NCBI GenBank assembly: GCA_023248955.1
Contig: JAHFDP010000008.1
Span: forward strand, 1 to 50,608
Direction: 5' to 3'
Source of the DNA: Deltaproteobacteria bacterium
GTDB lineage: Bacteria; Myxococcota; Myxococcia; Myxococcales; JAHFDP01
Length of the DNA: 50,608 nucleotides
Shown here: positions 34,430-38,538 of the stretch, one piece after another
Layout of the letters: each line of letters opens with the position of its first letter
Numbering within the stretch: position 1 is the stretch's first letter
Notes under the pieces: generated by a model
What the model was told of the DNA's origin: nothing
The model's input: only the letters and a program-made list of their open reading frames with translations
Databases searched by the model: none
Translations under genes and position numbers: made by a program

Positions 34430-35329
34430 TTACAAGACGCGATCGCGCCCGGCCAGTTTAGCGCCGCGCAACTTCGCGGCTGCTCGAGCGATCAACGCAT
34501 CACCATCGTCGCGCGGTCCGGCCGAAGCGACTCCCGCGGACAACGTCACGGTCAGAAGTTTTCCCTCGTAGGTGATGCGGCTAGCCTTGATCGAGCTGCG
34601 GACCGCGTCCGCAAACGCGCGTGCCGCAGTCTCGCCAGCACCGATGAAGGCGGCGGCAAAACGATCGCCCCGCGAGCGCGCGTAGAGATCGGGTCGAAGC
34701 GGCGGCCAGCGGTCTTTTCCGTCGGCGGCCAGATCGCGCAGCACCTGACCGACCTGCTTGAGAACCAAATCGCCTGCCAGCGCGCCGTGCCGCTGCGCCA
34801 GATCGCGCATGTGATCGACGTCAAAAAGCACCAGCGCAATGGGCTGCGCGCCGTGCCGGCCAACTTCGCGCATCAACGCTTCATGGAAAACATTGGCCGA
34901 GGCCAGCCCCGTCAGAGGATCGCGAATCGCCAGCCGAAACACTTCTTCGCGAATGGCCAGCTCCAAGTGGCCGCCCGCGAGAAATCGAAAAAGATGCTGA
35001 CCGACCTGCAGCAGATCGCCATCGCGCAGTGCGTATTCGTCGATGCGGCGCTCATTGACGAAGGTGCCACGCTTGCTGCCGAGGTCCTTCACCACGATGC
35101 CGCCTTCGCGCGGAACAAGCGCAGCGTGACGCGCATCGACGGCCGGGTCATCCAGCCGAACGTCCGCCCGCGGCGCGCTGCCTAGGACGATCTCATGCTC
35201 ATCCAAGTCAAACCGCGACCCAGGGGAACGGCCGGTCAATTCAACGAGGGCGCGCTCGGGCATTGGCGTAACGGCCTCCAGGCGTCGCACAACCTGGCGG
35301 GGCGTAGCGTTTGGAACGGGGTTGCGCAT
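34430..35329 (-). CDS. FHA-GGDEF protein with degenerate GGDEF signature
   Basis: 299 residues. An FHA domain (about 40-115) has the structural GSKRGTFVN and VDARHAAL (SxxH-like), but GRS is replaced by GSA. A GGDEF domain (about 130-299) keeps the RDPLTGLASANVF and LFDVDHMRDLAQRHG elements, but the active-site signature is R220-G-D-R-F224 in place of GG(D/E)EF. The changed first Gly and the Glu/Arg swap argue against diguanylate cyclase activity. It may bind GTP or act as a regulator. It heads the mutL operon and has a good promoter at 35339-35366. Confidence 0.88.
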   Translation of the reverse strand: MRNPVPNATPRQVVRRLEAVTPMPERALVELTGRSPGSRFDLDEHEIVLGSAPRADVRLDDPAVDARHAALVPREGGIVVKDLGSKRGTFVNERRIDEYALRDGDLLQVGQHLFRFLAGGHLELAIREEVFRLAIRDPLTGLASANVFHEALMREVGRHGAQPIALVLFDVDHMRDLAQRHGALAGDLVLKQVGQVLRDLAADGKDRWPPLRPDLYARSRGDRFAAAFIGAGETAARAFADAVRSSIKASRITYEGKLLTVTLSAGVASAGPRDDGDALIARAAAKLRGAKLAGRDRVL

Positions 35330-36922: not shown

Positions 36923-37123
36923 TCAGGTTCTATAGTCACCGACGGAAACAGCCGCGTAATCGATAATCACTACGCCGCGCTCACCGGTCTCTTCTTCGTC
37001 TTCATCGCGGGAGCGGCTGGGGCGATCGGGCTCTTGGGGAACCGGAAGCTCGGCGCGCGGGCGCTCGTCTTCCTGTTGCTCCTTGCGACGCTTGATTTCA
37101 TCGATGATGAAAGCATCAAGCAT
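36923..37123 (-). CDS. Conserved small acidic protein (MLDAFIIDEIKRR type)
   Basis: 66 residues, MLDAFIIDEIKRRKEQQEDE then Pro/Arg/Glu-rich and ending in GERGVVIIDYAAVSVGDYRT. I recall small proteins with this opening in many deltaproteobacteria, all uncharacterised. It is soluble, highly charged and mostly disordered except for its ends, so a peptide partner of a larger protein is possible. A strong GGAGGCGAGG ribosome site precedes the ATG. The 188-bp gap behind it (37124-37311) shows no gene. Confidence 0.75.
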   Translation of the reverse strand: MLDAFIIDEIKRRKEQQEDERPRAELPVPQEPDRPSRSRDEDEEETGERGVVIIDYAAVSVGDYRT

Positions 37124-37311: not shown

Positions 37312-38091
37312 TCAAATTGACGTAAAGGGGCGCAGCGCCTTCATCATCTCGCGCGCACTGTGAAATCGGTTCGCCGGCACGGGAGCAAGCGCCTTCGCGG
37401 CGACCGCCCGCAGCCGCGGATTGGCGATTCGAGGTACGGCATCCAGCGACGGATTGCCTGTTAGCAAATAGACGAGGTCCTTGCCAACGGCATACAAATC
37501 GCCCTCAGAGATCGGCTCCGGATCAGCTGTCCCCACGTCGATGACCTTCACCGAATCGGCCGATTCGCCGTGCATCAAAATGTTCTGGGGCCGGAGGTCG
37601 TTGTGCGAAAGGCCCGCCCGCTCGAACGCGCGCACGCCTTGCAGCACCTTCAGAATGATGCGCACCGATTGACGAACCGATCGCGGCTTCCACGGCATGC
37701 CCTCATGACCAAGCTCTTTGCCATGGATGAGCTCCATCACCAGCGCGTGGCGGCCCTCCGCCGTCGTGCCGACGCCGAAGCTTTTTGGAAGAATGCCATT
37801 GTGAACCTTGGAGATGATGTCCGCTTCGCGCTCGAAGGTGTCCGGTATTTCCATCGCCACCAGGTCGTCGTTCAGAAGCTTCACCGCAACCCTGTGACCA
37901 TTGCTTAGGTCACGACCTTCGTAGACATGGGCCAGCGAACCAGCGCCGAGCTCGCGACCGATTCGATACGCGTGCTCCCGCGCCCCGTGCTGCACCGTCA
38001 CGATTTTTCCAAACGGACTGGCCGGACGAGCTTCGGCCGGACCCGCCAACCAGGTTACTGCTCCGAGCAGTATGCCGATCGTCGCGCGCAT
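37312..38091 (-). CDS. Kinase-fold protein behind an export signal
   Basis: 259 residues. The N-terminus MRATIGILLGAVTWLAGPAEA looks like a cleavable signal peptide (cut after residue 21). A Hanks-type kinase fold follows: G-loop GRELGAGSLAHVY, Lys71 in VAVKLL, Glu89, SHNDLRPQN (162-170) in place of HRDLKPEN and DVG (185-187) in place of DFG. Lys71, Asp165 and Asp185 remain, so catalysis cannot be ruled out, but the fold would be outside the cytoplasm where ATP is scarce. The domain is short, ending soon after helix I. It starts 12 bp after the SRPBCC gene stop. Confidence 0.85.
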   Translation of the reverse strand: MRATIGILLGAVTWLAGPAEARPASPFGKIVTVQHGAREHAYRIGRELGAGSLAHVYEGRDLSNGHRVAVKLLNDDLVAMEIPDTFEREADIISKVHNGILPKSFGVGTTAEGRHALVMELIHGKELGHEGMPWKPRSVRQSVRIILKVLQGVRAFERAGLSHNDLRPQNILMHGESADSVKVIDVGTADPEPISEGDLYAVGKDLVYLLTGNPSLDAVPRIANPRLRAVAAKALAPVPANRFHSAREMMKALRPFTSI

Positions 38092-38103: not shown

Positions 38104-38538
38104 TTACGCTTTGGTTTCAACGCGGCGCTTGAAATTCTCGAGCAGGCTCGGCAGCGAATTTTCCGCGAGCGCCTTCTCCACGGAACTCGGCACGAGCGCG
38201 CCCAGCTTGAGTTCGATGGCATAGGTGGCTTCGGTTTTCGCGCCACCTTCGATCGGCGCCAGCATCCAGGAGCCGTCGTTGCCTTTCATGAACTCGCCGC
38301 GCAAGAGCGACCAGCTGGCCTTGAGCTCGGAATCCTTCTGATGGCGCAGCGTGTACTTGATGCGTTTGATTTTGAGATCGACGTCGTAAGTGACTTCCAC
38401 CGCGTTGCCGCTGACGGCGCCGACCTGCACGCCCTTCACCTCGGGGAGAAAATCCGAGTAGTGCGCGTAGTCGGAGATGACGGACATCACCTTGTCGGGC
38501 GATGCGTTGACGACGATCGATTTGGAGACTTTGGCCAT
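38104..38538 (-). CDS. SRPBCC/START-like (polyketide cyclase-type) protein
   Basis: A 144-residue helix-grip fold. The N-terminal VSKSIVVNASPDKVMSVISDYAHYSDFLPEVKGV is the standard SRPBCC opening, and a long C-terminal helix (SVEKALAENSLPSLLENFKRRVE) closes the hydrophobic cavity. Such proteins bind lipids or other hydrophobic ligands; the ligand is not evident. The kinase-fold gene starts 12 bp after its stop, so the two form a pair. Confidence 0.9.
   Translation of the reverse strand: MAKVSKSIVVNASPDKVMSVISDYAHYSDFLPEVKGVQVGAVSGNAVEVTYDVDLKIKRIKYTLRHQKDSELKASWSLLRGEFMKGNDGSWMLAPIEGGAKTEATYAIELKLGALVPSSVEKALAENSLPSLLENFKRRVETKA

Follow-up and report, generated by a model that had tools for sequence, protein, structure and literature searches.

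The catalytic domain of a bacterial Hanks-type kinase is expected to lie on the cytoplasmic side. A stretch of 50,608 nucleotides from a deltaproteobacterium (GenBank assembly GCA_023248955.1, contig JAHFDP010000008.1; hereafter the window) encodes a 259-residue kinase-like protein, P0001 (37312..38091, minus strand; ATG at 38091, stop at 37312), that opens with a stretch resembling a signal peptide, and this raises the question of what such a domain might do outside the cytoplasm. An exported kinase domain is odd in that ATP is thought to be scarce at its destination. The part of a Planctomycetota kinase survey drawn upon here gives the catalytic domain as cytoplasmic in all transmembrane-spanning proteins examined and describes the periplasm as devoid of ATP (PMC11032199). 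Among the matches listed in our literature searches there was no bacterial Hanks kinase with a signal peptide, although one may still be published.

Kinase fold, kept residues and missing parts

Past its signal-like stretch P0001 is a single PknB-like kinase domain (residues 41-257; 37321..37971, minus strand). The Pfam model PF00069 matches residues 42-189 (E 9.5e-18; 65 bits against a cut-off of 31.7), the sequence matches in PDB are StkP and PknB, and residues 25-258 of a predicted model align with PknB (Z 25.7, rmsd 2.0, 223 residues), which together place the protein among the Hanks-type (PF00069) kinases on Pfam score and fold. This model, for which 38 sequences from viral contigs and one from the window served as helpers (39 in all), has a mean pLDDT of 86.2; 174 residues reach 90 or more, and residues 1-19 fall below 50. 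It is predicted to contain alphaC, alphaE, alphaF (196-211), alphaH and alphaI, its C-terminal helices lying at 225-234 and 246-256. AF2 prediction of P0001 without an alignment gave a mean pLDDT of 39, indicating that the model leans on the supplied relatives. A fold search with the model gave, among the matches listed, only ordinary kinases. The NCBIfam models for PknB and PASTA kinases score P0001 far below their cut-offs: the PASTA receptor kinase model NF033483 reaches 87.5 bits against 450 and covers residues 42-189 only. With that score, and with neither transmembrane nor PASTA parts, P0001 is not a PASTA receptor kinase.

Examination of the alignments showed that P0001 keeps K71 (the beta3 lysine), E89 (the alphaC glutamate), D165 (the catalytic aspartate), N170 and D185 (the metal aspartate), bearing out the statement of an earlier note on this DNA that the kinase lysine, the HxD-like aspartate and the metal aspartate (K71, D165 and D185) persist in variant motifs. 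These variants are HND for HRD (H163-N164-D165) and DVG for DFG (D185-V186-G187), with HxDLK changed to HxDLR. That earlier reading had overlooked a shortfall of about 29 residues in the activation segment and about 20 around alphaG. The activation segment has collapsed to residues 185-197 (DVGTADPEPISEG; 37501..37539, minus strand), directly before D198-L-Y, with a PE remnant at residues 191-192 that aligns with the APE motif; the link between alphaF and alphaH (residues 213-225; 37417..37455, minus strand), the usual site of alphaG, is shortened both in the model and in the alignments. D185 is separated from D198, the SDxY aspartate, by 13 residues, as against 35-48 (median 42) in 20 co-aligned kinases, and the DFG-SDxY spacing in the 39 other rows of a second alignment is 36-59. 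A simpler search by motif, run on 77 kinases, gave 35-55 wherever both motifs were found, except in L106 (25), where the pattern had caught the APE region and which falls within 35-48 by alignment, and L037 (67), whose own APE lies at 38. Measured against the consensus of 21 aligned kinases, P0001 lacks 23+6 positions in the region of the activation segment and another 21 in that of alphaG, and alignment to P0002 alone, a second kinase of this genome, again opens gaps at both places.

Lacking a complete activation segment with its APE (subdomain VIII), P0001 is best described as a homologue of the PF00069 family and not as a canonical member. It retains the conserved R242, the residue that usually forms a salt bridge with the APE glutamate. 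The activation segment with its P+1 region and alphaG are the parts by which canonical kinases hold their peptide substrate; in the alignments the losses thus fall on the substrate-holding side, with the ATP side intact.

This combination sets P0001 apart from several known systems. Mycobacterium tuberculosis PknB and pneumococcal StkP, its best matches in sequence and structure, have the same fold and the same K/E/D/N/D residues; unlike them, P0001 lacks the activation segment, alphaG and any transmembrane or PASTA part, and its signal peptide would place the domain outside instead of inside. The bacterial pseudokinases MviN/ActPs3 and EssB/YukC, as presented in part of PMC12599244, resemble P0001 in their deleted or attenuated activation loop but have lost the catalytic motifs, whereas P0001 retains K/D/D behind a predicted signal peptide; that part of the source describes no signal-peptide case. 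None of the Lys/Asp/Asp losses that mark bacterial pseudokinases by motif is found in P0001. The effectors OspG and NleH, from the portions of PMC3585378 and PMC4588518 considered here, likewise keep their catalytic residues, have no activation loop and work outside the bacterial cytoplasm, as P0001 is predicted to do. They are, however, injected and lack subdomains VIII-XI (PMC3585378, PMC4588518), whereas P0001 has alphaF, alphaH and alphaI and a predicted Sec-type signal; with alphaF, its C-terminal helices and R242, it extends beyond the OspG/NleH arrangement of subdomains I-VII only. Helicobacter pylori CtkA is also named among the effector kinases in the same portion of PMC4588518.

The N-terminus and the choice of start codon

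Residues 1-21 (MRATIGILLGAVTWLAGPAEA, followed by RP; 38029..38091, minus strand) show an n-h-c pattern with one arginine, an uncharged h-region (best 9-mer Kyte-Doolittle value 2.34) and a predicted cleavage after AEA at residue 21. Outside residues 1-25 the best 19-mer hydropathy is 0.75, and at the level of sequence the earlier observation of a signal-like N-terminus without any other membrane span holds. P0001 also passes a rule-based signal peptide test that admits 1.3% of the start codons of the window (57 of 4286, counting all six frames). Applied to 139 distinct kinase ORFs that had passed a motif filter (16 from the same genome, 68 from the order and 55 from viral contigs; kinases lacking the motifs fall outside this screen), the rule retains two, P0001 and P0002. 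Moreover, codons 1-30 of P0001 score as coding with a log-odds of +2.5, a value reached by 0.5% of off-frame windows, while 8.6% of true coding windows score equal or lower. Judging from these features P0001 is likely exported.

The Sec-type features are accompanied by a possible alternative true start. In-frame GTG codons at positions 31 and 33 (37993..38001, minus strand) would give a cytosolic protein; GTG31 is immediately preceded by GGAAA and stands 11 residues before the tyrosine that opens the kinase domain, much like the arrangement in PknB. The ATG at codon 1 has no clear Shine-Dalgarno sequence and follows the stop of the upstream gene by 12 nt. The combination of signal peptide and kinase fold put forward in the earlier note is supported, and strengthened by P0002, whose signal cannot be skipped; it is weakened to the extent that translation might begin at GTG31, after residue 25.

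P0002, the gene neighborhood and the search for relatives

P0002 is a protein of 281 residues encoded on a different contig (G000:C71:2086-2928(-); L007, L114), by eye between secA and ffh. PF00069 matches its residues 37-272 (E 1.6e-25), and it is motif-complete, with HRD, DFG, APE and a complete activation segment. Its start candidates within the first 100 codons are 1, 3, 56 and 71, and the glycine loop precedes codon 56; hence the signal peptide cannot be skipped without breaking the kinase, which makes the export of such proteins credible in this genome. A single pairwise comparison of P0001 with P0002 (E 3e-19) gives an identity of 27% across 255 columns. Both lie on long branches in the tree (1.69 changes per column for P0001), and their joining is unsupported and possibly a long-branch effect.

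The genome (3.83 Mb in 116 contigs) has none of its own family among the relatives compared. Its Pkinase match rows, 20 in number, fall within 19 open frames; of the 18 frames read, the 16 besides P0001 and P0002 have, by eye, ordinary activation segments. Peptide-pattern scans of the collection of genome contigs recovered no orthologue of P0001 or P0002. Neither did searches with both proteins in 145 genomes of the order and 195 of the phylum, nor with P0001 only in 147 of the class, these being overlapping sets in whose large genomes part of the candidates was scored (the order is probably myxobacterial, as its genomes are large and can reach about 300 kinase candidates each). All other matches were to generic kinases. 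Among the scored candidates L038 has the best E-value and is 39% identical over residues 42-192; it runs off its contig at the APE, and no signal peptide is visible in it by eye. A DNA pattern with a short gap (HRDxKPxN-DFG-short gap-SDxY) had no match in 193 phylum genomes, and a control with the normal gap matched in 40 of 40 genomes (381 matches in total); as the short-gap pattern needs HRD, Lys and DFG, it would miss P0001 itself and excludes motif-canonical cases only. The Pkinase match rows of five order genomes include just two open frames of less than 345 residues, and no signal peptide was evident by eye in these or in three frames of 361-362 residues. P0001 is a real and unusual protein known from one genome, and the collections that we searched yielded no orthologue of it. 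As a separate observation, eight viral contigs (L136, L142, L154, L158, L160, L163, L164 and L174) have two adjacent Hanks kinase genes as a recurring tandem.

On the minus strand of the window P0001 is preceded by an SRPBCC/Polyketide_cyc2 gene (38104..38538), and followed by a 66-residue ORF without a Pfam match (36923-37123), phoH and a gene for an FHA and GGDEF protein (34430-35329), a diguanylate cyclase with the potential to recognize phosphothreonine. The stretch showed neither a promoter nor a terminator that was convincing. Relatives of the SRPBCC gene at 29 loci (29 of the 129 other genomes with a match) had neither a P0001 nor a P0002 relative within flanks of about 1.5 kb to either side, or less where the contig ended sooner. 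Nor does this neighbor point to an envelope role. The SRPBCC gene itself occurs in two copies in several f7-family genomes (G013, G018, G026, G032 and others). Elsewhere in the window, a PIN-domain toxin-like protein (PF01850; 40031-40447, plus strand) has just upstream a small ORF that, by eye, might encode a ribbon-helix-helix antitoxin, giving a VapBC-like pair. We also considered anti-phage defence and set it aside: the PADLOC PD-T4-6 models match P0001 and P0002 but also the generic kinase core, and no defence gene was seen beside either.

Possible roles of P0001

Given a lost substrate platform and a kept ATP site, the most economical role is that of a nucleotide- or partner-binding regulator. 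Our leading, still tentative reading is that P0001 is an exported allosteric protein of PknB fold that binds a nucleotide or a partner, most plausibly P0002, and is not an ordinary Ser/Thr kinase. Sec would export it to the envelope as a stand-alone domain, where K71, E89, N170 and D185 would probably still bind nucleotide and metal; the deletions seen in the alignments would have removed the platform for peptide phosphorylation, and P0001 might serve as a ligand-, nucleotide- or partner-binding regulator, possibly of P0002. The observation behind this pairing is simply that both proteins look exported, and we propose it by analogy with Fam20A and Fam20C, a pair in which, according to part of PMC4421793, an exported kinase can be activated by its atypical paralogue, itself exported. 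The likeness, an analogy only, is of two exported kinase paralogues outside the cytosol, one of them atypical; Fam20A and Fam20C are animal secretory-pathway proteins (PMC4421793), and a P0001-P0002 interaction is hypothetical. The two options offered in the earlier note both need revision. "Pseudokinase" is too simple for a protein that keeps all catalytic residues, and "receptor" is not supported, for want of a membrane-spanning part to signal through. An extracytoplasmic kinase agrees with those residues, but a classical Ser/Thr kinase is unlikely because the peptide-substrate platform is absent.

The residues themselves would also suit an active extracytoplasmic minimal kinase, comparable to OspG and NleH, working on a protein or small-molecule substrate with ATP that is exported or set free when cells lyse. 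The part of the literature used here has both effectors active without an activation loop (PMC3585378, PMC4588518); on the other hand they act inside host cells, the periplasm is taken, in the survey part cited above, as devoid of ATP (PMC11032199), and P0001 has N164 in place of the HRD arginine and V186 in place of the DFG phenylalanine, which leaves this reading unlikely in our estimate. We would grant a similarly small chance to a cytosolic degenerate kinase translated from GTG31 (or GTG33) behind a 30-codon leader sequence. The PknB-like placing of GTG31, the GGAAA before it and the want of a clear Shine-Dalgarno sequence at ATG1 speak for such a start, against which stand the coding character of codons 1-30, the closeness of ATG1 to the upstream stop, the rarity of signal-like N-termini among start codons and the unskippable signal peptide of P0002.

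It is also conceivable, though quite improbable, that P0001 is a decaying duplicate of a kinase gene that is shedding pieces and has no present function. Its long branch, its several deletions and the lack of an orthologue in the order, class and phylum genomes searched fit such decay; however, the deletions are in frame and strike substrate-side elements, while the listed ATP-site residues and alphaF, alphaH and alphaI stay, the frame is open and codon use is coding-like.

Under our preferred reading of P0001 as an exported regulator, one genome would hold two signal-peptide kinase domains, one complete and the other without substrate-side parts only; two small soluble proteins would then allow a direct test of whether bacteria signal by phosphorylation, or sense nucleotides, beyond their cytoplasm. 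As a more speculative extension, in which we place little confidence, the two may form an envelope-side Hanks pair: P0002 would be a Ser/Thr kinase active outside the cytoplasm, and P0001 an allosteric partner to it that responds to nucleotide. If true, such a pair would be an exception to the rule that Hanks domains of bacteria, unless they are injected, function solely on the cytoplasmic side, where ATP abounds.
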